NCBI GenBank assembly: GCA_018335875.1
Contig: JAGXRN010000034.1
Location: forward strand, 1-64,000
DNA: 64,000 nucleotides
Source: Dethiobacter sp.
GTDB taxonomy: Bacteria; Bacillota; Dethiobacteria; Dethiobacterales; Dethiobacteraceae
Reading direction: 5' to 3'
The position numbers and the translations under genes were made by a program. Positions within the stretch are counted from its first letter, which is position 1; the number at the start of each line of letters is the position of its first letter. Below the pieces are notes generated by a model. It searched no databases and was not told the DNA's origin. It saw only the letters and a list, made by a program, of their open reading frames with translations. Of this stretch, positions 334 through 55,690 are shown in pieces.

Positions 334-353
334 GCCGAAGCTAAAGCTTCGGC
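334..353 (+). terminator. Hairpin terminator after DUF2680 gene
   Basis: Perfect inverted repeat (GCCGAAGCT/AGCTTCGGC) starting 9 bases after the stop codon, followed by a pyrimidine-rich but not pure T tract. The following bases to 520 hold no gene. They contain a loose GGGGACA/TGTCCC pair (about 386-452) of the kind left by small transposon-associated repeats, which I cannot assign. Confidence 0.55.
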
Positions 354-493
354 TCTTCCCTTATTTGGGGCCATTAAATGTTCGAATATATTTGGGGACA
401 TTCCTCGACCCAATTTATGAGCCCTCTTCAGAGGTGTGTCCCATACCTTGTTACCTGACCCCAAGTTTTCTTTCTTTTTATTCTTCGCTGTTT

Positions 494-499
494 TATAAT
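494..499 (+). promoter_or_regulatory. Possible -10 box for the two-component operon
   Basis: TATAAT at 494-499 sits 23 bases before the response-regulator start codon. The -35 position 17 bases upstream (471-476, TTTCTT) is poor, so the promoter may need an activator, perhaps the regulator itself. Inference only. Confidence 0.35.
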
Positions 500-522
500 G
501 ACCTTATATAGCGGGGGTGAGC

Positions 523-1221: not shown

Positions 1222-1222
1222 C

Positions 1223-2584: not shown

Positions 2585-3062
2585 GGCCTCGGGTTGCATC
2601 AGTGGACACTGCTTTGCGGTCAAGATACCAGGCTACTGCTTTGGTGACAACAAAGGCCAGGACAAAACGCAACGGGAAGAGTATGAAGATGTTGGCTCCC
2701 AGGGCACCCATTACCAGATTGTCTTCGATGATGCTGTGGTTAAAGGCTAAAAAAACACCGCAGAGCGCCAGATCCCTTTTGTTTAACAAGCCCTGCCTGC
2801 TGTATTCGAGAAATATGGCAGCTCCGTAAAAAATGCCGATAAAAAGTCCCACAATCAGAGGAAAAGAAGCCTGTGGAGACAGGTTTAGCGAACGCGGCAG
2901 CCACCCGAGAAGGGTAGAGACTTTCTCAAGCAATTTGTAGCGGGCGGCATATTCAATCATAATCATAATTGGCACAAGTATCATTGTCAGGCCAAGCAGA
3001 GTGGTAATACCGGTACGCAGCGATTCAGTGATAATTGCAATAATCAAGGCTTTAACCTCCAA
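2568..3062 (-). CDS. Nucleoside-recognition (Gate) domain membrane protein
   Basis: Small integral membrane protein (164 aa) with four to five hydrophobic segments. The sequence around PLIVGLFIGIFYGAAIFLEY and FNHSIIEDNLVMGALG matches the Gate domain found in FeoB, SpmA/SpmB and nucleoside transporters. It is the second gene of a minus-strand pair, overlapping its partner by 11 bases. Such pairs probably form a heteromeric membrane channel. The substrate cannot be read from sequence. It converges with the histidine kinase gene. Confidence 0.75.
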   Translation of the reverse strand: MEVKALIIAIITESLRTGITTLLGLTMILVPIMIMIEYAARYKLLEKVSTLLGWLPRSLNLSPQASFPLIVGLFIGIFYGAAIFLEYSRQGLLNKRDLALCGVFLAFNHSIIEDNLVMGALGANIFILFPLRFVLAFVVTKAVAWYLDRKAVSTDATRGLKPAE

Positions 3063-3522
3063 AGACTATCAATATTATGTTTAGTATGAAACCAAAGACC
3101 AAGGCTCCTCCAATGCGCAAAAGCATGGACACCAGGGGGGAGAGGCCTGTAAACTTAAGCACGGGCGATTCCATCAGGAGCGAGTGGCAGGTTAAAATCA
3201 TCAGGCCAATGACAGTAATCTGCCGTGCGGAAAGTGACAGCACTGCAATTGCTCCCACTGCTGCGTAGAAGTTGACAAAAAAACCAAGCAGCAGGGGAAG
3301 TGCAGCTTCACCGGGCAGCCCGAAGATTCTCAGCAGCGGCCCAAATACTGCAGCTACAGTTACCAGCCAGCCCAGCCTGTCAAGTGCCACCAAAACAATT
3401 GTTACAGGAATTACTATTTTTGAGAGTAAAAGAACAGTCTTTAAAGCTTTAAGAGTTCCTTTAAGGGCGGGCTCGAGATAGTACTTGATGTTTTTAGAGT
3501 GTTGCTGCGAGGCGTTTTGCAA
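3052..3522 (-). CDS. Nucleoside-recognition (Gate) domain membrane protein, partner
   Basis: First gene of the minus-strand pair (156 aa). It begins with a short polar N-terminus, then hydrophobic segments including KIVIPVTIVLVALDRLGWL and PLLLGFFVNFYAAVGAIAVLS. The polar patch TCHSLLMESPVLKFTGLS corresponds to the FNHSIIEDNL patch of the partner, suggesting that the two are paralogous halves of one transporter. Arrangement resembles SpmA/SpmB-like pairs, but spore function is not implied. The promoter would lie in 3523-3600, back to back with selA. Confidence 0.75.
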   Translation of the reverse strand: MQNASQQHSKNIKYYLEPALKGTLKALKTVLLLSKIVIPVTIVLVALDRLGWLVTVAAVFGPLLRIFGLPGEAALPLLLGFFVNFYAAVGAIAVLSLSARQITVIGLMILTCHSLLMESPVLKFTGLSPLVSMLLRIGGALVFGFILNIILIVFGG

Positions 3523-3632
3523 GGCCGTCCCTCCTGAATAATTATAATCTTTTTCTTATTCTTCTATGTGAGTTTAAATCCTCTAGAAAAGGCAATTTTC
3601 TTTCCGCCGGCCCGGGCTAATGCCCGGCCTTC

Positions 3633-3661
3633 TTGCTTTAAATTGGTAAACCAGATATAAT
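3633..3661 (+). promoter_or_regulatory. Promoter for the sel operon
   Basis: TTGCTT (3633-3638), 17-base spacer, TATAAT (3656-3661), 51 bases before the selA start. A GC-rich hairpin (CCCGGGC/GCCCGGC, about 3611-3628) lies just upstream of the -35 box. Confidence 0.6.
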
Positions 3662-3711
3662 AAAGCAAGAAAAAACAAGGAAAATAGCTAGTAAGGCGGC
3701 AGGTGAAAAAA

Positions 3712-5118
3712 ATGGCTGAAAACTGGCGGCAGCACCATCTCAGATCTTTACCCGCTGTAGATGTGGTTGTAAACATATACCACAGAGAATACAGTGCCAC
3801 TCGCTACCCTCACTCCCTGCTGGTGAGCGTTGTCCAGGAAATTGTGGCGGGTTTGCGCCGGCAGATCTTGGCTGCCTCCGGGGATGAGGAACTGACAGGC
3901 CTCCCTGTGACGCCTGAAAAAGTGGCGTTTTGGGTTGACAGCAATCTGAGGAAGATGGAAAAGCCGTCACTGCGCCGGGTTATTAACGCTACGGGGACGG
4001 TGCTGCATACAAATATGGGGCGGGCGCCGCTGGCTGCAGCAGCCCGTCAGGCTATGGCTGACGCTGCCGGCTTTTGCAATCTGGAACTTGATTTGGAAGA
4101 GGGCCGGCGGGGTTCGCGCCACAGCCATATTGAGGACATTCTAATCAGCCTGACGGGGGCGGAGGCAGCCTGCGTGGTCAACAATAACGCTGCTGCTGTG
4201 ATGCTCTGCCTGAACACCGTGGCAGCAGGCAAAAAAGTTGTTGTATCCCGCGGAGAACTGGTGGAGATAGGCGGCAGTTTCCGTATACCCGATGTAATGA
4301 CAGCGAGCGGTGCACGCCTGCTTGAAGTAGGAACTACAAACAAAACTCACCCCGCCGACTACAGGCGAGCCATAGATGAAGAGACGGCACTCCTTTTAAA
4401 AGTACATACCAGCAATTTTAAGGTGGTGGGCTTTACCGCCGCTGTGGATACTGAGGAATTAGTGGTCATTGGCAGGGAGCACGGGCTCCCTGTGATGGAG
4501 GATCTCGGCAGCGGCCTTTTGGTTGACCTTTCAGGCTTTGGCCTTAACAGGGAGCCTCTGGTATCTGAACGTATCGAAGCGGGAGTTGATCTGCTTACCT
4601 TAAGCGGGGACAAGCTGCTGGGAGGGCCGCAGGCCGGCCTGATTTTAGGCAGGAGTGAACTGGTGGAACGTGTGAAAAAGAACCAATTAATGAGAGCCCT
4701 CAGGCCTGATAAGGTTACACTGGCCGCGCTTGAGGCTACACTGCGTGTTTACAGGTTCGGCGATCCGCTGCGTGAAATACCTGTACTGGCGATGTTAACC
4801 GCTTCCCCTCCGTTGCTGAAGGTACGTGCAGAGCGCCTGGCTAAACTTCTGCATGAGCACTGCAACGAAGCGTATACCCTGGATGTGGCTGAGGATTATT
4901 CATATGTGGGCGGCGGTGCCATGCCGCTGACCAGGCTTTTAACTTATGTTTTGGCTATCAAGCCAAAAAGTGCTTCACTGTCTGAATGGGTGCGAAAACT
5001 CCGCACAGGAGACCCGGTGCTTGTGGGCAGGGTGCAGGATGACCGCCTGCTGCTTGATTTGCGCACTGTTGCTGAAGATGAAGAAGAAGAGGTGATCCGG
5101 TGCCTCATGTCATTATAG
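3712..5118 (+). CDS. selA: L-seryl-tRNA(Sec) selenium transferase
   Basis: Converts seryl-tRNA(Sec) to selenocysteinyl-tRNA(Sec) with selenophosphate. It is a PLP enzyme of 468 aa, the usual SelA length. The N-terminal region (LRSLPAVD, INATGTVLHTNMGRAPL) is characteristic, and the PLP lysine is Lys301 in SGDKLLGGPQAG. The start could be GTG 3703 or ATG 3712; ATG better fits the AGG at 3700. It overlaps selB by 19 bases, and selB overlaps selD, so the three are co-transcribed. Together with two in-window TGA-containing genes this shows a working Sec system. The tRNA(Sec) gene is not visible here. Confidence 0.95.
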   Translation: MAENWRQHHLRSLPAVDVVVNIYHREYSATRYPHSLLVSVVQEIVAGLRRQILAASGDEELTGLPVTPEKVAFWVDSNLRKMEKPSLRRVINATGTVLHTNMGRAPLAAAARQAMADAAGFCNLELDLEEGRRGSRHSHIEDILISLTGAEAACVVNNNAAAVMLCLNTVAAGKKVVVSRGELVEIGGSFRIPDVMTASGARLLEVGTTNKTHPADYRRAIDEETALLLKVHTSNFKVVGFTAAVDTEELVVIGREHGLPVMEDLGSGLLVDLSGFGLNREPLVSERIEAGVDLLTLSGDKLLGGPQAGLILGRSELVERVKKNQLMRALRPDKVTLAALEATLRVYRFGDPLREIPVLAMLTASPPLLKVRAERLAKLLHEHCNEAYTLDVAEDYSYVGGGAMPLTRLLTYVLAIKPKSASLSEWVRKLRTGDPVLVGRVQDDRLLLDLRTVAEDEEEEVIRCLMSL

Positions 5119-7028
5119 GGACTGCCGGTCATGTGGATCATGGTAAGACCGCGCTGATTAAAGCACTGACAGGCGAGGATACCGACCGCCTGCGCGAGGA
5201 AAAGGAACGGGGCATTTCCATTGAGCTGGGGTTTGCGCCATTCAGGCTGCCCGGAGGGCGCCTGGCCGGCGTTATTGATGTGCCGGGCCATGAACGGTTT
5301 ATCCACAACATGCTGGCTGGAATCGGCGGGATTGACCTTGTACTGCTGGTAGTGGATGTGTCTGAGGGTGTGATGCCCCAAACCAGGGAGCACGTGGAGA
5401 TCATGGAGCTGCTTAAGATAGCCCGTGGCATTGTGGTGCTGGCCAAGGTGGATTTGGCCGATGATGAAGAATGGCTGGACATGGTGGAAGAAGAAGTGCG
5501 CGATGCTCTGGCGGGTACTTTTTTGGCTGATGCGCCTTTTCACCGTGTCTCTGCGCACACAGGCAAGGGGCTAAAAGAGTTGCTTGTGCAAATAGACCTT
5601 CTTACCGGCGAGTTGCCGTCCCGTGATGCCACGGCGCCGCTTAGGCTTCCGGTGGACCGTGTATTCAGTATGACCGGTTTTGGTACAGTTGTTACAGGCA
5701 CACTGCTTGCCGGACGTATTGCAACCGGCATGAATGTGGAAATCCTGCCGCTTGGCAGACAGGCCAGAGTCAGGCAGATGCAGGTGCACGGGGCTGCAGT
5801 GGATGAGGCCATTGCCGGCCAACGCGTGGCTGTCAACCTGGCAGGCGTGGAGAAAGAAACCCTGGAGCGCGGCAGTGTACTGGCAGCGCCCGGTTCGCTA
5901 TCAGACACATCCCTGCTGGATGCCCGCCTCTATCTCTTAAAGAGCGCGCCAAGAGCAGTGAAAAACCTGACACGTGTCCATGTCTTCCTGGGTGCAGGCC
6001 GCACGGTGGGCAGAATTGCTCTCCTTGACTGCGATGAACTGCAGCCCGGAGGAGAAGCCCTGGTGCAGCTGCGCCTTGAACATAAGCTGGTGGCCCATGC
6101 TGGTGACCGCTATATCATCCGTTCCTACTCGCCTATGACTACCATTGGCGGTGGTGTGGTGCTTGACGCGCATACTGCCAGGCATAGGAGAAAAAAAGAA
6201 GATGTGCTGCAGAGGCTGAAAGAACTGGAAAAGGGGGATCCGGCGGTTCCTGTTTTGCAGCGCATCCGCAGGGATGCTGTTGTGTTGGAGTCAGTGTTGC
6301 AAAAGCAATCCGGCCTGCCCCCGGAAAGTTTATCGGCTATACTTGAGCGATTGCAGCAGTCAGGTGAGGTGCAAACTATTGACGGGCTGCTTGTTGACGG
6401 CGCCGGCATGGCAGATTGGCGCCGCCGCCTACTTGAGGCTTTAACTGCCTTCCATGCTGCAAATCCGCTCTCTGCCGGTATCTCACGGGCAGAATTGAAA
6501 AACATTCTGCCCAAGGCAGTGGCAGCGAAGGTATACGGCAGCTTGTTGTCAGGGATGACAGAGAGCGGAGAAATATCAGAATCCGGCGATTTAGTCAGCC
6601 TGGCCGGGCATGAGCCGGCGCCGGGGCCTGAGCAGGCCCGTCTGCTGGAAAGACTGACCGTTCTTTACCGGGAGGGCGGGTTTACACCTCCAACACTGAG
6701 GGAGGTTGTTGAACAGACAGGCATTAAACCTGCTTTGGCGGAAAGCCTGCTGTCTTATCTTGCCAGGCGTGGCGAAGTCGTCAGGCTTGACGACCAGCTC
6801 GCCCTGCATCATGAGCATTTTTCACGTGCCAAAGAGCTTCTGTGCGAGCATTTCCGCAGCAATAAATCACTGGCTGCCGGCGAGTTTCGCGATAAGCTTG
6901 GGACTTCAAGGAAATTTGTACTGCCGCTTTTGGAAACATTCGACAGGATGAAGTGGACCAGAAGAATGGGTGATGAGCGGGTGCCGTGGCGGCTGGACTT
7001 GAGCAGCAGGGAGGTGGAAAACAAGTGA
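5100..7028 (+). CDS. selB: Selenocysteine-specific elongation factor SelB
   Basis: GTPase that delivers Sec-tRNA(Sec) to UGA codons by binding the SECIS stem-loop. The EF-Tu-like N-terminus has GTAGHVDHGKT, DVPGHERF and the switch region EERGISIELGF. Domains II/III follow with RVFSMTGFGTVVTGT, then C-terminal winged-helix repeats (about 380-640) that bind mRNA. Length 642 aa is normal. The GTG start at 5100 lies inside the end of selA, and the stop codon overlaps the GTG start of selD. This coupling suggests balanced translation of the three selenium proteins. Confidence 0.96.
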   Translation: MPHVIIGTAGHVDHGKTALIKALTGEDTDRLREEKERGISIELGFAPFRLPGGRLAGVIDVPGHERFIHNMLAGIGGIDLVLLVVDVSEGVMPQTREHVEIMELLKIARGIVVLAKVDLADDEEWLDMVEEEVRDALAGTFLADAPFHRVSAHTGKGLKELLVQIDLLTGELPSRDATAPLRLPVDRVFSMTGFGTVVTGTLLAGRIATGMNVEILPLGRQARVRQMQVHGAAVDEAIAGQRVAVNLAGVEKETLERGSVLAAPGSLSDTSLLDARLYLLKSAPRAVKNLTRVHVFLGAGRTVGRIALLDCDELQPGGEALVQLRLEHKLVAHAGDRYIIRSYSPMTTIGGGVVLDAHTARHRRKKEDVLQRLKELEKGDPAVPVLQRIRRDAVVLESVLQKQSGLPPESLSAILERLQQSGEVQTIDGLLVDGAGMADWRRRLLEALTAFHAANPLSAGISRAELKNILPKAVAAKVYGSLLSGMTESGEISESGDLVSLAGHEPAPGPEQARLLERLTVLYREGGFTPPTLREVVEQTGIKPALAESLLSYLARRGEVVRLDDQLALHHEHFSRAKELLCEHFRSNKSLAAGEFRDKLGTSRKFVLPLLETFDRMKWTRRMGDERVPWRLDLSSREVENK

Positions 7029-8074
7029 GTGAAGACAGGCAAAAACGCCTGACCCAGTTGACCTGCAGCGGCGGGTGAGCGTCCAAGATGCCCCCCGGGG
7101 TACTGGCACAGGTGCTGTGCCATCTGCCGCAAATGGATGATGAAAACCTGCTTGTCGGCTGTGACTCTTTTGCCGACGCCGGCGTCTACCGTGTAAGAGA
7201 AGACTTAGCCCTGGTGCAGACAGTTGATTTTTTCACACCGGTAGTGGACGATCCCTACCTTTTTGGCCAGGTGGCTGCGGCCAATTCATTGTCCGACGTC
7301 TATGCCATGGGAGCGCGGCCGCTTACCGCCATGAATATTGTCTGTTTCCCCTATAAAACCCTGGATGTTGCTGTCCTTGGCAAAATACTGCAGGGAGGCG
7401 CCGACAAAATTATGGAGGCCGGGGCAGTTCTGGTCGGCGGCCACAGTATAAATGATGACGAGCCTAAATACGGCCTGGCGGTGACAGGCATCATCCACCC
7501 ACAAAATCTAATCACAAATTCCTGCGCCCGCCCCGGCGACAGCCTGATACTGACCAAACCTCTTGGTTCCGGTCTTATACTGACGGCGGCAAAAGCAGAA
7601 ATGGATGGCCCCGGCGAATTGGAAGCGGTAATAAGGGCCATGGCAGAGCTAAACCGGGAAGCGTCCGAAGCCATGCAGTCTGTTGGTGTAAATGCGGCCA
7701 CAGATATCACCGGCTTTGGCCTGCTCGGCCATGCCAGGGAAATTGCACTGTCAAGTAAAGTTTCCATAGAGCTGTCTTTTGGCAGCATTCCTCTCTTCAC
7801 AGGAGCGCTGCAGGCAGCCTCCATGGGTCTTGTGCCCGGAGGCGCCTACGCCAACCGCGAATATGTTGCCGAGGGCCTGGAAATTGCAGAGGCAATTGGC
7901 GAGCGCGAAATCGATGTGCTTTGCGACCCGCAAACTTCAGGCGGCCTGCTGATTGCAGTCCCGCCGGAGAAAGAAAAGAAGCTGACGGCACAACTGGAGA
8001 ACAGGGGCGTACTCGCCGCCGTTATCGGGAAAGTCCTGCCCGGCAGACCCGGCATAATTAAAGTAATGCCATAA
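7025..8074 (+). CDS. selD: Selenide, water dikinase SelD, a selenocysteine-containing form
   Basis: Makes selenophosphate from selenide and ATP. The true start is GTG 7025, overlapping the selB stop, and translation passes through an in-frame TGA at 7076-7078 (residue 18). The context reads CSGG-Sec-ASK, so Sec replaces the active-site Cys and is three residues before the essential Lys21, as in E. coli Cys17/Lys20. A plain gene caller would start at ATG 7088 and lose the active site. The rest is typical: DFFTPVVDDPYLFGQ, AANSLSDVYAMG, GGHSINDDEPKYG, TDITGFGLLGH and DPQTSGGLL. Full length 349 aa fits the family. Confidence 0.92.
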
Positions 8075-32343: not shown

Positions 32344-33327
32344 ATGTATTTTCCTGTTAACAGGCCGCGGAGGCTGCGGCGTACTGAGGCGTTAAGGAGT
32401 ATGGTGCGTGAGACGCAGTTGTCTGTGCGGAATTTAATTTACCCGCTTTTTGTCACGCATGGTGAGAGAGTGAAGGATTCAATTGCTTCCATGCCCGGCG
32501 TTTACCAGATGTCTGTGGATGAAATTGTCCGTGAGGCGGGCGAATGCCTGGGACTTGGCATAGCGGCAGTGATTCTTTTTGGCCTGCCGGCCTATAAGGA
32601 TGAGAAAGGATCTTCGGCCTATGACCAGGAGGAAGTTCTCCAGCAGGCGGTGGCGGCGCTGAAAAGGGCTTATCCGGAGCTGATTGTGATTACCGATGTC
32701 TGTCTGTGCGAATATACCAGCCACGGCCACTGCGGCCTGATCAGCGGCGATGATGTGGAAAACGATACTACGCTGAACCTGCTGTCACGCACGGCGCTCT
32801 CTCATGCCCGTGCCGGCGCCGATATTGTGGCGCCCTCAGACATGATGGATGGGCGTGTCGAGGCCATCCGCAGCACTCTTGACGAACACGGCTTTTCTCA
32901 TATACCCATTCTTTCTTACGCTGTAAAATATGCTTCTGCCTTTTACGGGCCTTTTCGCGACGCCGCAGGGTCTGTGCCGCAGTTTGGTGACCGCCGTTCC
33001 TATCAGATGGACCCTGCCAACATCCGTGAAGCGCTTAAAGAAACAGAACAGGACATAGCCGAGGGGGCCGACATGGTTATAGTTAAACCGGCCATGGCCT
33101 ACATGGATGTAATACGTGCTGTTAAAGAGAATACCAATGTCCCCGTTGCCGCATACAACGTCTCGGGTGAGTACTCCATGGTCAAGGCGGCGGCTCAAAA
33201 CGGCTGGATTGACGAGAAAAGAGTGGTCCTGGAAATTCTGACAGGTATTAAACGCGCCGGCGCTGACCTGATTATCACATATTTTGCCAAAGACGCAGCA
33301 ATGTGGCTGAAGGAGGAAAAGCAATGA
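32344..33327 (+). CDS. hemB: Delta-aminolevulinic acid dehydratase (porphobilinogen synthase)
   Basis: 327 aa. Starts [20 protein letters not shown]. Zinc-binding cysteines are in [14 protein letters not shown], so it is the zinc-dependent form. The catalytic lysines lie in [15 protein letters not shown] and [13 protein letters not shown]. Stop overlaps the ahbD start (ATGA). Confidence 0.97.
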
Positions 33328-34337
33328 TAATTTCCTGGAATACTACCCGTGAATGCCATCTGAAGTGCAAGCACTGCTATCGTGATGCAGGCGACAGGGA
33401 GGCCGGGGAGCTTTCAACTGATGAGGGGAAAGCACTTATTGACGAGATAGCCAAAGCAGGCTTTAAAATACTGATACTTTCCGGTGGGGAGCCGCTCCTG
33501 CGCGAGGATATATTTGAGCTTACCACCCACGCCAGGGAGAGAGGAATGCGCCCGGTTTTCGGCACCACCGGCACAACAATCACACCCGAAGTGGCAGGGA
33601 AACTAAAAGCAGCAGGAGCTGCCTGCATCGGTATTTCCCTTGACAGTGCCGGCCCCGCCATCCACGACGAGTTTCGCCAGGTGCCGGGCTCCTGGCAGGG
33701 CGCTATTGAGGGCATGAAAAACTGCCGTGAGCAGGGCCTCCCTTTCCAGGTCCACACCACAGTGGTGGAACAGAATTATCATGAGTTTGAGTCTATCACA
33801 GACCTGGCTGTGGAAAAAGGAGCTGTGGCTCACCATGTGTTTTTCCTGGTGCCCACGGGACGTGCCAGGGATATGGAGGCTGAAGGCCTGCGGGAGATGC
33901 AGTACGAGCAGCTGCTGCACCGCATTCTGAAAAAGCAAAAGCAGGTAAAAATTGAACTGAAACCCACCTGTGCCCCGCAGTTTATGCGCATTGCCAGGCA
34001 GATGGGCATGGAAATGCGCTTCTCCCGGGGTTGCCTGGCGGGCACCGCCTACTGCTGCATTATTCCCAGCGGTGACGTCCATCCCTGCCCCTACCTTCCT
34101 GTTAAAGTAGGCAATGTGCGCGAGACTCCCTTTTCCGAAATCTGGCGCAATGCCGAGATGTTTAAGCAGTTTAGAAGCGACGAATTCGGCGGCAAATGCG
34201 GAACCTGCAACCATAAAGATGTTTGCAGCGGCTGCCGCGCCCGCGCCTACTATTACACCGAAGGCGACTACATGGCAGAAGACCCGTGGTGCCTGTACCG
34301 GAGGGGTTCATCCCATGAAGCAAAAAACTGCTGTTGA
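33324..34337 (+). CDS. ahbD: Radical SAM heme synthase AhbD
   Basis: 337 aa. Radical SAM motif CHLKCKHCY near residue 12, and a C-terminal cluster segment [20 protein letters not shown]. Final step of the siroheme route: oxidative decarboxylation of two propionates of Fe-coproporphyrin III to give heme b. ATG 33324 has AGGAGG upstream and overlaps hemB. The end overlaps ahbA. Confidence 0.9.
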
Positions 34338-34800
34338 CAGCCTCTCAGGTGTGGACAGAGAACTCCTTAATATTATTCAGACCGACTTTCCTCTTGAGCC
34401 CAGGCCCTATGCTGTAATCGGCGAGCGACTTGGCCTCAGTGAGAAAGATACGCTTTCCCGCGTTGCCGCACTCAAAGAAAAGGGTGTCATCAGGCGTATA
34501 GGCGGCATCTTTGACTCCGGTAAGCTTGGTTTTTCATCCACTTTGGTGGCGCTGAAAGTAGAAGAAGACAGGGTGGAAGAGGTGGCGCGCAGCGTGGGCA
34601 GCTATGCCGGGGTTACTCATAATTACCAGCGCGCACACGAGTTCAACCTCTGGTATACACTGGTTGCCCCCTCTGTGGGGGCAATGGAACAGATTCTTGC
34701 TGAAACGTCATGCCTGCCCGGTGTGCTTAAACTGCGCAACCTGCCTGCACTGAGGCTGTTTAAAATCGGTGTTAATTTTGATATGCAGGAGAACGATTGA
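34315..34800 (+). CDS. ahbA: Siroheme decarboxylase subunit AhbA
   Basis: 161 aa, Lrp/AsnC-like winged helix followed by a decarboxylase domain. Typical GVDRELLNIIQTDFPLEPRPY, GVIRRIGGIFDSGKLGF and the catalytic-region THNYQRAHEFNLWYTL. Removes, with AhbB, two acetate carboxyls of siroheme. ATG 34315 after GGAGGGG, inside the ahbD end. Confidence 0.9.
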   Translation: MKQKTAVDSLSGVDRELLNIIQTDFPLEPRPYAVIGERLGLSEKDTLSRVAALKEKGVIRRIGGIFDSGKLGFSSTLVALKVEEDRVEEVARSVGSYAGVTHNYQRAHEFNLWYTLVAPSVGAMEQILAETSCLPGVLKLRNLPALRLFKIGVNFDMQEND

Positions 34801-35267
34801 TGATACTAAGTGAACTTGACAAAAAAATTATTTCCCACCTGCAGGGAGACCTGCCCCTTGAAGCCAATCCGTATGCTGCTATTGCTGCACGTGTAGGCAT
34901 ATCAGAAGAAGTACTGCTGCAAAAAATAAAGGACTACCTTGAGGCCGGCATTATGCGCCGCTTTGGCACGATTTTAAGGCACCACCAGGCAGGTTATACT
35001 GCCAACGCCATGTGTGGCTGGAATGTGCCTGCGGACAGAGTGGAAGATGTGGGCAGGGTTATGGCTTCTTTCAAAGAAGCTTCACATGTTTACCAGAGAC
35101 CCACCTATCCCGATTGGCCCTACAACCTTTTCACTATGCTGCACGGCAGGACACAGGAAGACCTAAAGGATGCCGCGCGCAGGATCTCAGACCTGACAGG
35201 TATAAGCGACTACAAACTGCTTTACAGCACCAGGGAATTTAAAAAGACAAGCATGGATTACTTTTAA
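34800..35267 (+). CDS. ahbB: Siroheme decarboxylase subunit AhbB
   Basis: 155 aa paralogue of AhbA (KKIISHLQGDLPLEANPYAA, GIMRRFGTILRHHQAGY, SHVYQRPTYPDWPYNL). The HVYQRP motif corresponds to THNYQRA in AhbA. The start ATG 34800 shares its A with the AhbA stop. AhbA/AhbB act as a heterodimer in sulfate reducers and archaea. Confidence 0.9.
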   Translation: MILSELDKKIISHLQGDLPLEANPYAAIAARVGISEEVLLQKIKDYLEAGIMRRFGTILRHHQAGYTANAMCGWNVPADRVEDVGRVMASFKEASHVYQRPTYPDWPYNLFTMLHGRTQEDLKDAARRISDLTGISDYKLLYSTREFKKTSMDYF

Positions 35268-35272
35268 AACTG

Positions 35273-35303
35273 GCCGGGCCGGCTAACATCCGGCCTGGCT
35301 GTA
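35273..35303 (+). terminator. GC-rich hairpin between ahbB and hemL
   Basis: GGCCGG/CCGGCC stem with a short loop but no T-run, so it is either a weak terminator or an mRNA processing/stability element. A possible hemL-specific start lies in 35304-35370. Confidence 0.4.
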
Positions 35304-35370
35304 AGCTGTCTGATCAGGATTTTGTTCTGAAGCCGCTTGATATACATATTAACATTAAGGGGGTATTTAG

Positions 35371-36660
35371 ATGTTAGAACGTTCTGGAGAGCTCTTTGCA
35401 CAGGCACAGAAGTTAATGCCCGGCGGAGTAAACAGCCCTGTACGGGCCTTTAAGTCTGTGGGCATGGATCCTCTGTTTATTACACGGGGCACGGGCTCAA
35501 AAATCTACGATGCAGACAGCAACAGTTATATAGATTATGTAGGTTCCTGGGGGCCACTTATTTTAGGGCATGCCCACCCGCGTATCGTGGAGGCGGTCAT
35601 CTCTGCTGCCGCACGCGGTACAAGCTTTGGCGCTCCCACTGAACTGGAGATTGAGTTGGCGCGTATGGTGATTGAAGCAGTCCCCTCGGTGGAGATGGTG
35701 CGCATGGTTAATTCGGGTACAGAGGCTGTAATGGGAGCTCTGCGCCTGGCCCGGGGTTTTACCGGTCGCGAAAAAGTAATTAAGTTTATCGGCTGTTATC
35801 ACGGCCATGCCGACAGCCTGCTCATTAAAGCGGGTTCTGGTGTTACCACCCTCGGCCTGCCCGACAGCCCCGGCGTCACCGCCGGTACGGCCAAAGACAC
35901 CCTCACTGTCCACTTTAACGACCTTAATGCAGTTGAAGAAATCTTCTCACAGGCAGGCGAAGAAATCGCAGCAGTAATTGTGGAGCCCATTGCCGGCAAC
36001 ATGGGCCTGGCGCTGCCAAAGCCCGGTTTTCTGCAGGGATTACGGGATTTAACTGCCAGGCATGGCGCCCTGCTGATTTTTGACGAGGTGATGACCGGCT
36101 TTCGTGTCGCCTACGGCGGCGCGCAGGAGCTTTATGGCATCACCCCCGACCTGACTACCTTGGGCAAAGTAATCGGTGGCGGCCTGCCGGTAGGCGCCTA
36201 CGGCGGCAGGAAGGACATAATGGAACAGGTGGCGCCAAGCGGCCCTGTCTACCAGGCGGGCACTCTCTCGGGCAACCCGCTTGCCATGAGCGCCGGGCTG
36301 GAGATGCTCAAAGCCCTAAAAGAGCCGGGTACTTATGAAGAGCTGGAGGCTAAATCTGCAAAGCTGGCCGATGGCTTAAAAGCACTGGCCGATAAGCACG
36401 GCACAGAAACCTGCTTCAGGCGCGCCGGCTCCATGTCCTGTATCTATTTTACCAAAGAAGAGGTATTTGATTTCCCCACAGCCCTCACTTCAGACATTCC
36501 GCGCTTCCGCGCTTACTTTAAGGCACTGCTGGAAAACGGGGTCTATATTGCTCCGTCGCAGTTTGAAGCAGGCTTTGTCTCACTTTCGCACAGCGATGAA
36601 GACATCTTGCACACACTGGACGCCGCAGACAGAGCTTTTGCTGCCGCGTCACGGGTGTGA
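35371..36660 (+). CDS. hemL: Glutamate-1-semialdehyde 2,1-aminomutase
   Basis: 429 aa. Produces 5-aminolevulinate from the HemA product. Motifs: [48 protein letters not shown] and PLP Lys266 in [16 protein letters not shown]. Completes the pathway in the operon. No hemE, hemG, hemH or hemN is seen, so heme is made via siroheme. Confidence 0.96.
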
Positions 36661-36718
36661 CGCATATCACAGCCAGCCAGCGAATATTCAGATAGACTGT
36701 AGTAAAAAACCGGGGTGA

Positions 36719-37795
36719 TTGTCTGTGCGCCAAGTGTTTTTGTTTTTCTCCGTCCTGGTTTTGCTTGCTGCTGCGGGATGCACTGCAAGATACTCAGATT
36801 CTGCCGCTAGCGGAGAAGACACCTGTGTGTCCTGCCACGGCGAGACCGCCCGCTTTGTTTCGGCCTCGGTGCACGGCACAGAGGGCTTAGGCTGCAGCCA
36901 CTGCCACTCTGAAGCCGCTGCTCACCTAAAGGACAGGCGTGTCTCACCCGGTGTTGATTATTCCGGCGCTACCTGTGCGGTCTGCCACGGGACAGAATAC
37001 CATGAGTGGACATCATCACCCCATGCTGTGATACCACTTAACCTGCTGCCCAATGATACGCGTATCATGGAATGCCTGAAATGCCACCAGGCGGGCGGGT
37101 TTGCTGCAGTATTGGCAAGCGGTGGCAACTTTAAAAACGCCAAGGCTCCGCCACCCACCAGAGAGCCCGAGCCAGTCACCTGTGTTGCCTGCCACACGCC
37201 GCATGGCGGAACCGACTATAAACTGCTGCGGCTGCCCAAAGAAGAACTTTGTGCCGCCTGTCATGGCGGCAAATGGCAGAACCTGGTGCTAAACGGTACA
37301 GGAGGCCACCAATACCCGGGACGTGATTACACTGTTTTTTCTGCTCACCCGCACAACAGCGTCGGGCATTGTGCAACCTGCCATATGGCACGTACTCCGG
37401 GAGCGGATGGCGTGGGAGGGCATACATTCAGTATGCGAGCAAAAGACGGCGGGCAGCAAAACACAGGCGCCTGTGCCGCTTGTCACGGTGAAACTGAGGA
37501 TTATAATATAAGCGGCAGGCAGCACGAAGTTGATGCGCTGCTTATACAACTGCGCACCGTCCTTGAGGAGCGCAACAACGGCAGCCTGCCCGGTTTTCAG
37601 CCCGGCGCCTGCAACCAGTGTCATCGCGGCGGCACGCTGCCGTTTGATGACGACCCGGAGTTAATACTTGAGGAAGCCTATGAAAATTACAAACTGGTGG
37701 ACCGTGACAAGTCACGTGGGGTTCACAACCCGGGCTATGCCCTACAGCTGCTGCGTGACAGCCTGGAAAGCGTGAAAAAAGAATATAGCCGCTAG
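36719..37795 (+). CDS. Nonaheme c-type cytochrome lipoprotein
   Basis: 358 aa with nine CxxCH motifs (CVSCH, CSHCH, CAVCH, CLKCH, CVACH, CAACH, CATCH, CAACH, CNQCH). The N-terminus is a lipoprotein signal (VLLAAAGC, Cys near residue 20). The C-terminal segment DRDKSRGVHNPGYALQLL resembles the end of doubled-CXXCH and NrfA-related cytochromes. Start taken at TTG 36719 with only a weak GGGG site, so it is unsure; GTG 36725 is an alternative. An electron-carrier role outside the membrane is inferred; no catalytic CxxCK motif is seen. Confidence 0.85.
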   Translation: MSVRQVFLFFSVLVLLAAAGCTARYSDSAASGEDTCVSCHGETARFVSASVHGTEGLGCSHCHSEAAAHLKDRRVSPGVDYSGATCAVCHGTEYHEWTSSPHAVIPLNLLPNDTRIMECLKCHQAGGFAAVLASGGNFKNAKAPPPTREPEPVTCVACHTPHGGTDYKLLRLPKEELCAACHGGKWQNLVLNGTGGHQYPGRDYTVFSAHPHNSVGHCATCHMARTPGADGVGGHTFSMRAKDGGQQNTGACAACHGETEDYNISGRQHEVDALLIQLRTVLEERNNGSLPGFQPGACNQCHRGGTLPFDDDPELILEEAYENYKLVDRDKSRGVHNPGYALQLLRDSLESVKKEYSR

Positions 37796-37803
37796 AGTAT
37801 TAA

Positions 37804-37840
37804 CAGGGACAGCAAAAGCTGTCCCGTTTCATTTTATTTG
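37804..37840 (+). terminator. Terminator after the nonaheme cytochrome
   Basis: GGGACAGC-AAAA-GCTGTCCC followed by GTTTCATTTTATTT. Downstream, 37841-38100 holds no gene but has an inverted repeat AGCCATA/TATGGCT (about 37867-37889) and a long leader before the selenoprotein gene. Confidence 0.8.
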
Positions 37841-38100
37841 TACAAAGATGTCAGTAAAGATTCCAGCCATAAGATTTGTTTATGGCTATTGTATATAGGT
37901 ATGGATGCAACACAGGGAAATACCTTACGCACTTCGAATATAATTAATCATATAGTTTAAGTTATAGTATCCCGTGTGAGTTTGTCCATATTGGTGAAAG
38001 TGATAACTATAACAATACGTAGAGGGGGTGGGTTCAGCATTCAATGATGTATAAGTTGCAGACATTGCCGGTACATACCAAAACAAAGGAGGAAGAGTAG

Positions 38101-38904
38101 ATGCCAAACGAAAAAGTGAAAGAGTTAACAAGGAGGAAGTTCTTACACGGGGCAGGGACTTCTCTCGCCGGACTTGCCTTGGCTGGCAGCGTGGGATTGC
38201 TGCTGCCGGGGTGCACGAAGCAAGCAACACCAGCACCGGTGGCGGCGCCGGACCCTGTAATCGGGGTACCCCAATGGCCTTTAAGCTACGTAAAGCTGGA
38301 CCCCGCTGCGGCGGAGAAAAAAGCCTATGACGCCTATATGAAGGACGGGTGAGGCTACGGCGCTGCTGAGGGGACCCTCGGCTATTTGGCAGAAGTAGTG
38401 GGTTATCCTTTTAACCAAATTCCCACAGAAGGTTTTTCAGCTTTTAAATCCGGCGTCCACGGTTGGGGCTCAATCTGTGGTGCGCTGGTGCCTGCTATCT
38501 ATGCAATAAACGTGGTGGCAGAAGGCGATGATCAAGTCAAGATGATTAACGAACTGATGGCCTGGTACAAAGACACTCCTTTCCCCATCTACCAACCCAA
38601 GGGCATGAACCTGCCAACTACTGTGGCAGACTCCAGCTTGTGCCATGTTTCAGTCACAAAATTTATGCAGGCTATGAACATTCCCCGTGATGCACCGGAG
38701 CGCAAGGAGCGCTGCGGCGGACTGACGGCGGATGTGGCGAAGTTTACAGTGGCTATGCTGAATGACTTTGCAGACAAGAAGTTGGCCACAGGTGTATTCA
38801 AGCCATCTGCTGTTGTGGGCGAGTGTATGGCCTGCCACAGCAAATTGGAATGGGCTCATGGCAAGGAAACCTGCACCTCGTGCCACGGCGACCCGCATAA
38901 GTAA
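38101..38904 (+). CDS. Tat-exported split-Soret-like diheme cytochrome with selenocysteine (C_GCAxxG_C_C family)
   Basis: 267 codons including an in-frame TGA at 38350-38352, read as Sec84. The frame is continuous on both sides: 83 residues before it hold a Tat signal (TRRKFLHGAG) with lipobox Cys38 (LPGC), and 183 after it hold the rest of the domain. The Sec stands where the family's first conserved Cys belongs (MKDG-Sec-GYGAAEG), followed by GSICGAL, LCHVSV and ERCGGLT. Two heme motifs end the protein, CMACH and CTSCH, as in Desulfovibrio split-Soret cytochrome, which also binds an FeS centre. AAGGAGGAAG precedes the ATG. Activity unknown; selA, selB and selD are in the same window. Confidence 0.85.
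38365..38382 (+). promoter_or_regulatory. Candidate bacterial SECIS stem-loop
   Basis: Twelve bases after the TGA, GCTGAGG-GGAC-CCTCGGC forms a 7-bp stem (one G-T pair) with loop GGAC. Distance and a G-rich apical loop fit the bacterial SECIS pattern recognised by SelB. The sequence also codes for protein. Confidence 0.6.
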
Positions 38905-38930
38905 GCTTCAAACTTCCATGCTTTTTGCAG

Positions 38931-38962
38931 GCAGGGACAGCAACCGCTGTCCCTGCTTTTTA
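38931..38962 (+). terminator. Terminator after the selenocysteine cytochrome
   Basis: GCAGGGACAGC-AACC-GCTGTCCCTGC followed by TTTTTATT. The following 225 bases to 39187 hold no gene apart from the repeat noted next. Confidence 0.9.
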
Positions 38963-38966
38963 TTGT

Positions 38967-38991
38967 CGTCAAGGAAATTATAGCATACCTT
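38967..38991 (+). repeat. Second copy of a 25-bp intergenic repeat
   Basis: CGTCAAGGAAATTATAGCAT then ACCTT; differs from 11543-11567 at one base. The rest of the element at 11.5 kb is not found here, so this is a partial copy directly after a terminator. Confidence 0.7.
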
Positions 38992-39187
38992 CTACTTTTT
39001 ATCTCCAGTACATTCCATGGGAAAAAATACATTCAAAATCCGACAAATTTGTGTATAAAATGTGTCGAAAAAAGAAGGTGTTTATGTCAACCAAGTGAAT
39101 AGTTATATTGCTCACAAGCGAGATGACTCAGCAGAGAGCGTCAACTCAAAATAATTTGTTGGTTTATAGTTTTCAGGGGGTGTTCAA

Positions 39188-39892
39188 ATGCAAAGATTGA
39201 AGATCTTTAAGGGTCTTTCCCATGGTGCCAGAAGGGGGCTTTATGCAGCGGGGGCTGTTTTTGCCTGCATAATCTTTATTTTCCTGCTGACCTTGGCAGC
39301 GGATGCACGGAAGCCGGAATTCTGTGCCAACTGTCATCTGATACAGCCTTATTACTACACCTGGGAAAACTCTCCCCACAGCAAAGTCAATTGTCTTGAA
39401 TGCCATGTTGAGCAGGGTACAGGTTTTGTAGCGATACAGGCACGGGGTTTGAAAAACCTGTCTGTTTATAGAGCGGGAGATGTAGACCCGCCAATTACCG
39501 GCACAAAAAAAATCAGCAGTGATGTCTGCCTGCGCTGTCATTCTCCTAACAGAAAAATTACACCGTCAAAAGATCTGTCCATACCACACAGCGAGCATCT
39601 GGGCTATGGCACCGACTGTGTCGATTGCCATGTGGGCGTCAGTCACGGCGGAATCAGTGAGATGGATAAATTTAGTGTCGACGAAACTGTCCTGGCCGGT
39701 TTTAAAAATACTGACTATAACGATTTTGCCCTTACAAAGACACGCTGCCTTGAGTGCCATAATGGTATGAAAGCTACTTATAACTGCCAGGCCTGTCATA
39801 CCGAAACCCGTATTCCCAGTAACCACTCACAGACTGCCACGGTGCAGGAGACAAATGTCTGTGACTTCCAGAGTAAAACACCCTGCCGGTAA
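39188..39892 (+). CDS. NapC/NirT-like membrane-anchored hexaheme cytochrome
   Basis: 234 aa. One N-terminal membrane anchor (about residues 18-38) and six CxxCH motifs (CANCH, CLECH, CLRCH, CVDCH, CLECH, CQACH). The opening KPEFCANCHLIQPYYYTWENSPHSKVNCLECH pattern, in shorter blocks, matches NapC/NrfH quinol dehydrogenases. Role inferred: takes electrons from menaquinol and passes them to the cytochromes encoded downstream. ATG 39188 after AGGGGGTG. The last 38 bases overlap the next gene. Confidence 0.85.
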   Translation: MQRLKIFKGLSHGARRGLYAAGAVFACIIFIFLLTLAADARKPEFCANCHLIQPYYYTWENSPHSKVNCLECHVEQGTGFVAIQARGLKNLSVYRAGDVDPPITGTKKISSDVCLRCHSPNRKITPSKDLSIPHSEHLGYGTDCVDCHVGVSHGGISEMDKFSVDETVLAGFKNTDYNDFALTKTRCLECHNGMKATYNCQACHTETRIPSNHSQTATVQETNVCDFQSKTPCR

Positions 39893-41027
39893 AAAAAAAT
39901 ATTTATACTTTATACTTGCGCTGGTGACATTTCTCACAATCCTCTCTATGGGGCTTGATGTTAAACAGAATTCACCCGGTTTTTGTTCAAGCTGCCATAC
40001 CATGAAGCCCGAGTATTATACCTGGCGGTCGTCTTCTCACAGCAAGCTTGACTGCCTGGAGTGCCACCAGGCAGAGGGAGTAAAAGGAGTCCTAAGTTTA
40101 AGCAGCGACCTGGTTCGTATGACTTACGCCGAAATTACCAAATCATACATCCGACCTATCCGGCTTTTCCGCAGCATTGATGACCAGGTCTGCTTCCGCT
40201 GTCACAGCTATAACCGAAAGGCTTCACCAAAAGGCGACCTGATCATCCCACATGAAGCGCACAGTGATCGTAGTGTACGCTGTATCTCGTGCCACAGCGC
40301 AGTGGCCCACGGTGATATCGCCCGTCGCGCTATCACAAGAAGTATAGATTACTCCGCCTGGGATATGGATGAGGGGGTCCAGCAGATGGCCGGCGAGTTG
40401 GCCCGGCCCAGTATGGAAAACTGCATGTCATGTCACTATAGGCGCCGTGTCGCAACCTCCTGTGAAACCTGCCATACAGGCATGTCCGGCCCCGACAATC
40501 ATCTTCTCGCCGATTTTGGTGTAAATCACGGTACTTTTGCCAGGGATGGGCTGCAGGATTGCAACTCATGCCACGGCTACTCCGGTGAAAAGAAGCTGCA
40601 GTTCACAGAGAAAACCAGCCTTGCTCAATACACGCGTGAAAACAGATTCTGCCTCTCCTGCCACCGCACAAGGCCTCCGAGCCATGAGAACAGTATTTTT
40701 AGGAAAACCCACGGCCTCGGGCTGCAGTATGAAGACAGGGAGAAAGATGGCTGCCTGGTCTGTCACGACAACAACCGGTCCGAGCTGCCCCGGGTCACTG
40801 AAGTATCGTGTGCCCAGTGCCACCCCTCAAAGCATGGAACAAACTGGCGCAGTGGGCATCTGCCCGCACTTGCCCTGCAGGATGGGATTTCCAACACGTG
40901 CTTCCGCTGCCATTCATCCGATACCTGCCTTGGCTGTCACTACCTGCCGGGCAGCAGTACGGGGGGGTGGCGCGGCGCCCCACCGCTTGATATCTTCGAA
41001 CCTCTGCCACCCCCGATTTCCAGCTAA
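39855..41027 (+). CDS. Membrane-anchored dodecaheme cytochrome
   Basis: 390 aa. A membrane anchor near residues 15-34 (YLYFILALVTFLTILSMGL), then a NapC-like start (SPGFCSSCHTMKPEYYTWRS) and twelve CxxCH motifs in total. The first half is paralogous to the preceding hexaheme protein (compare ECHQAEG/ECHVEQG and CFRCHSYNRK/CLRCHSPNRK). The second half adds six more hemes and ends with a Pro-rich tail. Likely the next carrier of the same electron path, anchored outside the cell membrane. Confidence 0.85.
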   Translation: MSVTSRVKHPAGKKKYLYFILALVTFLTILSMGLDVKQNSPGFCSSCHTMKPEYYTWRSSSHSKLDCLECHQAEGVKGVLSLSSDLVRMTYAEITKSYIRPIRLFRSIDDQVCFRCHSYNRKASPKGDLIIPHEAHSDRSVRCISCHSAVAHGDIARRAITRSIDYSAWDMDEGVQQMAGELARPSMENCMSCHYRRRVATSCETCHTGMSGPDNHLLADFGVNHGTFARDGLQDCNSCHGYSGEKKLQFTEKTSLAQYTRENRFCLSCHRTRPPSHENSIFRKTHGLGLQYEDREKDGCLVCHDNNRSELPRVTEVSCAQCHPSKHGTNWRSGHLPALALQDGISNTCFRCHSSDTCLGCHYLPGSSTGGWRGAPPLDIFEPLPPPISS

Positions 41028-41053
41028 ACAGTACAGTTTGAAAGGAGAACATC

Positions 41054-41704
41054 ATGGAGACAGCCATCAGCAGACAAAAGGCATATCCTCTCTGGAAAGT
41101 AGTTTTTGGCATGCTGCTTTGCGCAGCACTGATAAGTACGACGGGCAATGTGATTGGCAGCCGCTTTTTTTGGACGGAGCTTGACCTTCGGCGACTCGAC
41201 AAGCAGATTGCCTATTACCAACAGTTAGTTGATGCAGAGCCAATGGAGCCCGAGCACAGGGTGAACCTCGGCTACACGCTGCTCCGCCGCAGCGACTACG
41301 CCCGCGCGCTCATCCAGATGAATGCTGCCGTGGAAATTGACAAGACATACATGCCTGCTTATCTCAATGCCGGTTATGTCTACCAGGCCATGGAGCTGTG
41401 GGACGAGGCGCTTGTGCAGTTTCACAAAGTGACAGAACTTGCTCCCGAAGATTACCGCGGCTTTTTTAACATGGGAGTCTGCTTTATGTATCTGGAGATG
41501 TATAATGATGCGCTGGACATGTACCATATCGCCAAACTTCTCAGACCCGGTGCAAGCGATGTGGCTTATTATACCGGTATGAATTACGAGCTTATGGGTC
41601 TACCCGAGTCGGCAGTAGATGAATACGTGGAGGCTCTCACCTTTAATTCCAAGTATAAGGAAGCACAGGAGGCAATTAACCGCCTGACCGGTGCCGGGAA
41701 GTAA
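41054..41704 (+). CDS. Membrane-anchored TPR protein
   Basis: 216 aa. A single N-terminal span (WKVVFGMLLCAALISTTGNVIG) and then about four tetratricopeptide repeats (EPEHRVNLGYTLLRRSDYAR, MPAYLNAGYVYQAMELWDEA and two more). TPR proteins in cytochrome operons often help assembly, like the CcmH/NrfG C-terminal domain. AAAGGAG precedes the ATG. It could supply the apocytochrome-handling function that is missing from the ccm/res locus, but that is inference. Confidence 0.75.
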   Translation: METAISRQKAYPLWKVVFGMLLCAALISTTGNVIGSRFFWTELDLRRLDKQIAYYQQLVDAEPMEPEHRVNLGYTLLRRSDYARALIQMNAAVEIDKTYMPAYLNAGYVYQAMELWDEALVQFHKVTELAPEDYRGFFNMGVCFMYLEMYNDALDMYHIAKLLRPGASDVAYYTGMNYELMGLPESAVDEYVEALTFNSKYKEAQEAINRLTGAGK

Positions 41705-41748
41705 TCTTTAACTAATGAAAGGGGGTGTGCGGCCAAGCCGCAGAAGCT

Positions 41749-42894
41749 ATGCAGTCAGTCAGCAGTTTTTTAAATAAACCAATTGGACAAAAACAGGCAC
41801 GTGTTGTTTTTACCGCTCTGGTTATTTTATTGTTTGCCTATTATGGCCACCTCTTTGTTACCAGGAGGCCGCCGGTATCCACAGCCCTTGGTGCTGTACT
41901 TCCGGGGCGGGCCGGTGTACCGGTCTTTGACAGTATGATTTACGGTGAATTCGGTGATGGTCAATTTGATAAACCAATGGCGGTGACGACCGCCCACGGC
42001 CGTATCTATATCTCCGACACCAACAACAGCCGTGTACAGGTCTTTGATAATGCCGGCAGATTCCTCTTCACTTTCGGTGAAAACGGCAAGGCTCCGGGCC
42101 AGTTCCTTTATCCTTATGGCATTGCCGGCGACCGTAACGGTAATATCTACGTTGCAGAGCTTTATCTGGGACGAATACAGGTTTATGACACCGACGGCAA
42201 CTACCTGCATGATTTTGCCTCAGAGTTAACTGCAGCCGGAATCATTCAGGGGCCCGGCGACATGGTCATTGTTGACCGTACCATGTATGTTACTGATATT
42301 AACCGCAACAAGGTCCTGTTGATCGACCTTGAAAGCGGTGAGTTAATCAGGCAGGTGGGCATGCCCAACGACCTGCTTGCGCCCAATGGCGTCGCAGTTG
42401 ACGAAGCAGGCTATATATTCGTCGTTGATACCGGACGGCAGCGCGTGGTGGTCTACGACACTCACGGTAATCCTGTCCGTGTCATCAATGGCACTCCAAA
42501 CGGCCACGGCAGAGGTTCTGTGCTCATTAATCCCCGCGGTATCGGCCTTGACCGCTCGGGCCACATTTTTGTGGTAAGCAATATGTCTCACTCTGTCTTT
42601 GTCTTTAACCGGGAAGGAGAGGTTGTCCGCTCCTTTGGCGGCCAGGGAGACGGCAACAATGAGTTCATGTTTCCCCACTTTATAATCCAAACACAGTGGG
42701 CGGCCCCATGGCGGCCATTGACGGCACTAAAATCTTCAATAAATTCTTCGGTATTAACTATGGCGCTGCTTACGCTTACTTTAAAACACAGGCGGACGAA
42801 GATTATTTCTTCAATACCTACCTGCCTGAACGTTTCCCGGGACAGAACTCCGTATGGGCTGACAGGGCCGTTTTCCTGGCCGGCCTCAGGATAG
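41749..42894 (+). pseudogene. NHL-repeat beta-propeller protein, C-terminus replaced at an abrupt junction
   Basis: One membrane anchor (about residues 18-36) and then NHL repeats (FGEFGDGQFDKPMAV-like, FGENGKAPGQFLYPYG, VGMPNDLLAPNGVAV and so on). The last recognisable repeat stops at GNNEFMFPH (about 42678). Beyond it the frame runs on as low-similarity sequence to TAG 42892-42894, while another frame encodes a cytochrome. NHL proteins are common in cytochrome operons as exported scaffolds. The start is uncertain: GTG 41725 has a better, though very close, GGGGG; ATG 41749 lacks a site. Confidence 0.7.
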
Positions 42895-43439
42895 ACGCCG
42901 GCGGAGTAATAAAGGTCACAGCCGGCTATAATTACCCTGACACTGCTGCAAACCGTTATAAGTCAGACTTCATCGACCCTGTCACCTATGCCGGCAACGT
43001 CCTCATGGGCGCCACCAATGCTCCGTATAACCTGTTCTGCGCAGCCTGCCACACCGATTATCTTGACGGGTCGGCTTCCAGCCAGCCTGCAGGTGGTGTA
43101 GGCATCTACTCCAAGGCTTTCCGCCACACTATCAACCGGGGCGCCACCGGCGGCGAAACCATGGCTGTCCGCGCCGCCGGCAATAATCTGTTATGTGTAT
43201 CCTGCCACTTTGCCCACGGTGTTGACTCGTCTTTCATGAGCCTTGCCAACGCCAAGCTGGTTGACGACCCCACCTCCGGCTTCACCGGTGACAACGATGT
43301 GAACCAAAGTTCCGCGCTTAAACGCTACATCAACATGTCTGTGTGCTGGTCCTGCCACGCTAATTCCTCTGCCACCACTCTTAAAAATACCCAGTGGTAC
43401 TGGAACAGCTACGACACAATGAAGCAGGGCAACTGGTAA
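42681..43439 (+). pseudogene. Triheme cytochrome fragment lacking its 5' end
   Basis: From about 42681 the frame reads YNPNTVGGPMAAIDGTKIFN and then a coherent protein with CAACH, CVSCH and CWSCH. There is no signal peptide or ribosome site at its beginning; the ATG at 42696 lies inside the domain. A c-type cytochrome must be exported, so the N-terminus is missing. It is joined directly to the truncated NHL gene in another frame. May be the C-terminal part of a larger multiheme protein. Confidence 0.7.
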
Positions 43440-49131: not shown

Positions 49132-49161
49132 TCTGGAAACAAATAATGCCTCACCGCCTAG

Positions 49162-49342
49162 GTGAGGTAGAGGCGCGGTTGCCAAGAGTACTGCCTGGGA
49201 GATACGGGATTGATGAATGGGCAGGAAAGGGGTTGCCGCCGAAGCCGGCATTTCACCCGCGTGTGCCTGGCTGGGACGTCAGTGAATAACTAACGTACTG
49301 TCACCGGGAGCTGCCCTGACTCCCGGTGAAGAGCTATCTCAC
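49162..49342 (+). promoter_or_regulatory. Lysine riboswitch (L-box)
   Basis: The conserved 5' core GGTGAGGTAGAGGCGCGG and CCAAGAGTA match the L-box, as do GAAAGGGG, GCCGAAG and the closing strand. P1 is formed by GTGAGGTAG (49162-49170) with CTATCTCAC (49334-49342). It precedes lysA-dapF-dapL-asd-lysC. An upstream hairpin CCTCACC/GGTGAGG (49149-49167) can pair with the 5' strand of P1. Confidence 0.92.
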
Positions 49343-49373
49343 GGAGGGCGTTGGGGATGTGTCGAGTCTGTAA

Positions 49374-55409: not shown

Positions 55410-55429
55410 TAATTTCAAATCCATAAATT

Positions 55430-55690
55430 AAAAGCGATGAGAGGGAACAGTAAGTCCTGCTTATGACTGCAGAGAGCCGGTGGTGCTGTGAACCGGTGTC
55501 AGGGCGGAGGCTGAAATTACACCCTTGAGCAGCGGACCGAAAGATTTCGAGTAGGCTCCGACGGGTTCCCGCCGGTAAAAGGGAAAGGGCATAATCCCGT
55601 TTAGACGGGCCGTGCCTGCAAGTGGGCTTTGGCCAATTTGGGTGGTACCGCGGAAATATATCCGTCCCTTCGGGGCGGATTTTTTTATTG
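55430..55690 (+). promoter_or_regulatory. T-box leader, probably tyrosine-specific
   Basis: Contains GCGATGAGAGGGAACAGTA, AGAGAGCCGGTGG with GTGAACCGG, the conserved GGACCGAAAG region and the T-box GGGTGGTACCGCGG (55640-55653). The terminator ATCCGTCCC-TTCG-GGGCGGAT + T7 is at 55660-55687. The specifier region GAAATTACA suggests UAC (Tyr) at 55518-55520, consistent with control of aroF-tyrA-aroA; AUU (Ile) in the same stretch is the less likely reading. Confidence 0.9.

Follow-up and report, generated by a model that had tools for sequence, protein, structure and literature searches.

A 64,000-nucleotide stretch of Dethiobacter sp. DNA (assembly GCA_018335875.1, contig JAGXRN010000034.1, positions 1 to 64,000 of the forward strand; hereafter the window) contains, at 38101-38904, a gene with an in-frame TGA at codon 84. 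This codon almost certainly inserts selenocysteine (Sec), a conclusion about as certain as sequence alone allows, and the product is very probably a Sec-containing split-Soret-type cytochrome with the Sec at a non-heme metal or redox site. The reading frame is continuous across the TGA (38350-38352) from the ATG at 38101 to the TAA at 38902-38904, and reading TGA as Sec gives a protein of 267 residues with Sec at residue 84. An earlier note on this DNA had described this uninterrupted frame, with a twin-arginine translocation (Tat)/lipobox signal before the TGA and a C_GCAxxG_C_C domain and two CxxCH motifs after it, and had warned that gene callers would split the gene; all of this is borne out. 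Standard open reading frame (ORF) calling yields two pieces, 38101-38352 and 38386-38904, and such genes are therefore probably under-annotated.

The strongest evidence for Sec comes from homologous genes. All 41 aligned homologs have either Cys or TGA at residue 84, so the TGA does sit at a family Cys, as the earlier note had claimed, and the invariant columns of this alignment include residues 84, 126, 181 and 205, in heme-less forms too. The same note had suggested looking for Sec homologs in other genomes, and TGA does occupy codon 84 in about 50 homologs spread over two phyla, with TGC or TGT in others. The first gene set held TGA in 39 distinct genes (17 two-heme and 22 heme-less) and TGC or TGT in 24. 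Among 247 genomes around a Desulfonatronum metagenome-assembled genome (MAG), a homolog was present in 89, four of which carry TGA. Nine more TGA genes lie within an otherwise Cys branch, with the TGA at column 84, although two of them align one codon off, beside a gap. A tree of 90 proteins requires at least nine switches between Sec and Cys, eight of them forced by well-supported branches, and among the genes examined this exchange is confined to residue 84, the other three Cys positions never showing it. The repeated exchange marks residue 84 out as chemically special among the four positions that are candidates for the iron centre.

The Sec forms at loci L139-L146 fall within the Cys branch, and single genomes hold several of them; G107, for example, has three beside one Cys copy. 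This pattern suggests that the gene was duplicated and that copies exchanged Sec and Cys. The window genome itself encodes two more C_GCAxxG_C_C genes, L001 on contig C79 and L002 on contig C10, which have Cys and not TGA.

Were the TGA a true stop, through pseudogene formation or sequencing error, the downstream part would be dead or a separate short ORF, and an in-frame TGA that makes standard calling return two ORFs is what this would look like. However, the same codon is TGA in all of those genes across many genomes, and invariant motifs lie on both sides of it. In comparisons with three relatives, the ratio of nonsynonymous to synonymous substitution rates (Ka/Ks) downstream of the TGA is 0.04-0.18, well below 1, indicating that purifying selection acts on this region. 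Together with the hairpin covariation described below, the same-codon conservation and Ka/Ks values rule out a pseudogene, a sequencing error or a pair of split ORFs, and a true stop is extremely improbable.

A hairpin 12 nucleotides after the TGA, also noticed earlier, is confirmed and resembles a bacterial selenocysteine insertion sequence (SECIS). Its arms were compared at +12 to +18 and +23 to +29 after the TGA. The sequences are related and non-independent, so the following counts overstate the effective sample size: arm pairing is kept in 95% of cases in Sec genes (260/273) against 56% in two-heme Cys genes, and the loop starts with G in 39 of 39 Sec genes against 2 of 24 Cys genes. In a permutation test, none of 2000 permutations reached the pairing of the Sec genes, and the value for Cys genes was under its own permutation mean. 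The segment also folds more stably in Sec genes, at a mean of -10.6 kcal/mol against -3.9 kcal/mol in Cys genes. Cleaner evidence than these pooled counts is provided by Cys genes nested inside the Sec branch (L072, and L020, L023, L024 and L026), which have lost the hairpin or the loop G; L016, a Cys gene in the same branch, is an exception and retains the loop G. Among the Sec genes that fall in the Cys branch, hairpins lie at different distances from the TGA, and every gene has one or more loops with G at the first or second position. Single-sequence folding was set aside as proof of a SECIS, since the 66-nucleotide fold alone is only modestly stable relative to shuffles (z = -1.45), and it is the comparison that carries the case. 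At the gathering threshold, Rfam has no match at 38101-38904.

The genome encodes the full set of selA, selB, selC and selD. As the earlier note had claimed, selA, selB and selD lie about 30 kb upstream of the gene, and selD has its own in-frame Sec TGA (7076-7078, in TCSGG-U-ASKMPPG). The tRNA-Sec is on contig C15 (26313-26404, 72 bits), the end of which (33474-41339) matches window positions 1-7866 over 7,866 bases at 99.99% identity; if this overlap is a true join, tRNA-Sec comes about 7.2 kb before the window starts. The shared sequence could be overlapping contig ends or an assembly duplication, and reported contamination is 6%. SelB scores above cut-off in 19 of 20 TGA-carrying genomes tested, the exception (G417) being a 1.4-Mb draft. 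General reassignment of TGA is ruled out, as TGA is also an ordinary stop here, ending selB, hemB, hemL and others, so recoding at codon 84 is local.

The assignment to the split-Soret cytochromes, likewise anticipated, is upheld by both sequence and predicted structure. PDB 1H21, the split-Soret cytochrome c of Desulfovibrio desulfuricans ATCC 27774, is the sole PDB relative by sequence (phmmer E = 1.9e-35), with residue 84 aligned to a Cys of 1H21, and is also the sole significant fold match of the predicted model (Foldseek E = 2.5e-16, TM-score 0.70, root-mean-square deviation 2.2). PF09719 (C_GCAxxG_C_C) scores 43.4 bits, exceeding its gathering cut-off of 27, while TIGR01909 of the same name reaches 21.2 bits, under its curated cut-off of 47.4. 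The NCBIfam model NF047622 for split-Soret cytochrome c matches at E = 2.5e-52 with 178 bits, under the equivalog cut-off of 400, which places the protein in the wider split-Soret family as a homolog outside the Desulfovibrio-type equivalog. The window protein and 1H21 have in common the fold (predicted here), two CxxCH motifs, four invariant non-heme Cys positions and a His after the third Cys, and Desulfovibrio-type relatives likewise keep the C-terminal-tail His. The window protein differs in having Sec and not Cys at residue 84 and in lying on a separate branch of the tree. With the C-GCAxxG-C-C family (PF09719, TIGR01909), in which Sec is known, it shares the conserved Cys positions, to which it adds two hemes, a Tat export signal and the split-Soret fold.

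The two CxxCH motifs and two additional His needed for bis-His ligation are present in the sequence; the other marks of the class, namely a dimer, stacked hemes, ligands crossing between monomers, a split Soret band and an iron centre, belong to structure and spectra. H182, H246 and H262 occur in every heme form of the 41-homolog alignment, and the tail His in all heme forms listed except L112. H182 occurs in none of the heme-less forms of that alignment; the heme-less branch lacks CxxCH motifs, and H182 is missing from it except in L013. This pattern fits H182 and the tail His as the probable distal heme ligands. At the other end of the protein, the twin arginines (LTRRKFL) are followed by a candidate lipid-attachment Cys in LLPGC, which in relatives reads LTGC, LSGC or LTAC, and the product would be a Tat-type lipoprotein precursor that is probably membrane-anchored.

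Some of this has precedent. C-GCAxxG-C-C proteins are listed as predicted selenoproteins in reviews that do not name split-Soret cytochromes (PMC9312934, PMC13188914). Two other c-type cytochromes, the ExtKL multiheme (NF040886) and the tetrathionate-reductase-family octaheme (TIGR04315), are also listed as predicted selenoproteins (PMC13188914); these are likewise c-type cytochromes with predicted Sec, set apart here as other families by name only. The idea of Sec at family level is therefore not new. Split-Soret cytochrome and selenocysteine together were not found in the literature searched, which mostly excluded subscription journals and did not extend to public annotations, and a paper on Dethiobacter alkaliphilus respiration contains no split or selenium terms. 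What is new is the split-Soret identity, the repeated Sec/Cys exchange, the heme-less Sec branch and the recurrent YeeE, TusA and LysR neighbours considered below. The structure of a split-Soret cytochrome has been published for more than 20 years, and we know of no established function for these proteins. In D. desulfuricans, expression of the split-Soret cytochrome has been shown to drop with nitric oxide (PMC5701242). The heme-less Sec branch and the YeeE, TusA and LysR neighbours offer a first handle on the substrate.

The earlier note had proposed a protein that unites selenium, heme and probably an FeS centre; selenium at such a centre is a hypothesis. The entry title of 1H21 includes 'A novel iron centre', and by analogy with that structure we favour Sec84 as a ligand or part of an iron centre, which we consider somewhat probable. 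Sec in known selenoproteins is usually redox-catalytic. In an alternative reading, this branch has no iron centre and Sec84 does thiol/selenol redox chemistry, for instance by forming a selenenylsulfide with C126, C181 or C205. The invariance of the four Cys/Sec positions in heme-less forms too would suit this, as would the Pfam name of PF09719, 'putative redox-active protein'. On the other hand, joint invariance of all four positions is expected for a four-ligand site, and we give the redox residue a real but smaller chance.

The genes around the homologs bear on what such a centre might act on. Three neighbours recur within 5 kb of the gene, namely a permease of the YeeE/YedE type, a LysR regulator and a protein similar to TusA. 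They accompany 10-12 of the 18 heme-less Sec loci, 5 of the 12 two-heme Sec loci and 4 of the 24 two-heme Cys loci, and TatA/TatC are often present as well. Modules of this kind are known from thiosulfate uptake (YeeE/TsuA-TusA) and selenium metabolism (YedE/LysR_Se), and they are recurrent neighbours of the split-Soret family; the literature looked at on them describes no exported diheme partner. Instead of sulfur redox chemistry, the protein might serve selenium supply or sensing, working alongside a transporter like YedE and a LysR regulator of selenium metabolism. The best model for the neighbouring LysR is indeed NF040786 LysR_Sec_metab (228 bits) and for the permease YedE/FdhT (169 bits), and YedE and LysR_Se have both been linked to selenium metabolism (Lin et al., 2015; PMC5322559). 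However, both scores miss the curated cut-offs (250 and 350, respectively), and since the same genes flank some Cys forms, their presence does not follow that of selenium in the protein. We consider a supply role unlikely and, with low confidence, take these neighbours as a clue to the substrate of the family; they hint, doubtfully, at a small oxidised sulfur or selenium species.

A mechanism can be proposed on this basis. SelB-dependent insertion of Sec at UGA 84 would be followed by Tat export and heme attachment outside, and Sec84, C126, C181 and C205 would form the iron centre or redox site of the family. As C181 directly precedes H182, which probably ligates a heme, this centre and the hemes could exchange electrons. 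Electrons would be accepted from membrane cytochromes, here the NapC/NrfH-type neighbours, which are plausible quinol-linked partners, and the selenium-containing centre would act on small oxidised sulfur or selenium species. In its fullest form, the selenium of Sec84 coordinates the split-Soret iron centre, which is linked electronically to the hemes via Cys181-His182, and the exported enzyme reduces such species and passes the product to a YeeE/TusA import module; this proposal is improbable as a whole. If true, it would describe an extracellular active site of selenium and iron that is wired to hemes.

Several points weigh against the proposed mechanism. The role of the iron centre is carried over from 1H21, and the YeeE/TusA/LysR association covers a minority of both the Sec two-heme and the Cys loci. 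The window genome has a tusA-lysR-yeeE-tatC cluster of its own on the same contig, but about 51 kb downstream and without a cytochrome. Cys split-Soret mutants of D. alaskensis had no phenotype under the conditions tested (PMC4215793).

The setting of the gene in the window suggests a further role, in extracellular electron transfer, in which the protein would serve the multiheme-cytochrome cluster around it as a general electron carrier or as its terminal reductase and have no specific small substrate. Both in the window and in a sister genome with the same setting (G401, a Dethiobacter sp. MAG), hemL lies on one side of the gene and multiheme cytochrome genes on the other, with NapC/NrfH-type proteins next to it. 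Yet the other Sec two-heme loci examined are outside multiheme-cytochrome clusters, and a Sec residue is hard to explain in a plain carrier, so we think this role rather unlikely. Coordinates of all features are collected in Table 1.

Table 1. Features of the cytochrome gene and its surroundings in the window.
Feature	Position	Strand	Basis or remark
Shine-Dalgarno GGAGG	38088-38092	+	sequence, upstream of ATG 38101
Sec-containing split-Soret-type diheme cytochrome, 267 residues, U84 (very probable)	38101-38904	+	TGA = U translation and homology
Tat twin arginines R11-R12 (LTRRKFL)	38131-38136	+	sequence; R11 conservation at least 90%
Cys38, candidate lipid-attachment residue (LLPGC)	38212-38214	+	Cys in 14/34 heme forms and 7/7 heme-less forms (41-homolog alignment)
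TGA, predicted Sec codon, residue 84, first of four invariant non-heme Cys/Sec positions	38350-38352	+	
SECIS-type hairpin, arms 38365-38371/38376-38382, loop GGAC	38365-38382	+	sequence, covariation
Cys126 (SICGAL), second invariant non-heme Cys	38476-38478	+	alignment
Cys181-His182, third invariant Cys and probable distal heme ligand	38641-38646	+	alignment
Cys205 (ERCGG), fourth invariant non-heme Cys	38713-38715	+	alignment
Heme site 1, CxxCH (CMACH, 242-246)	38824-38838	+	translation, alignment
Heme site 2, CxxCH (CTSCH, 258-262)	38872-38886	+	translation, alignment
His266, C-terminal-tail His, probable second distal ligand	38896-38898	+	all heme forms listed except one
selA	3703-5118	+	
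selB	5100-7028	+	
selD with in-frame Sec TGA	7028-8074	+	ATG ORF called at 7088 is truncated
Heme-synthesis genes hemB, NirJ2/AhbD-type radical SAM, ahbA, ahbB, hemL	32344-36660	+	upstream
Multiheme c cytochrome	36719-37795	+	directly upstream
Two NapC/NrfH-type multiheme cytochromes	39188-41027	+	directly downstream

The tusA-lysR-yeeE-tatC cluster of the window genome (L133 7400-12960, contig C34) is followed by a 5'-nucleotidase (UshA-like) gene, and a cytochrome remnant sought in this cluster was not found. On contig C50, a split pair of YeeE genes seemed to carry in-frame TGAs; as these lie at or after the end of the ORF, the pair was rejected as a selenoprotein. Further along the window, an NHL-repeat ORF (41725-42894) overlaps a CxxCH ORF (42696-43439) in a different frame, possibly through a frameshift; the counterpart of the CxxCH ORF in G401 is a longer, 5-heme ORF (L086 16237-18001). 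Rfam matches in the window include a lysine riboswitch and a T-box leader, at 49160-49344 and 55428-55672.
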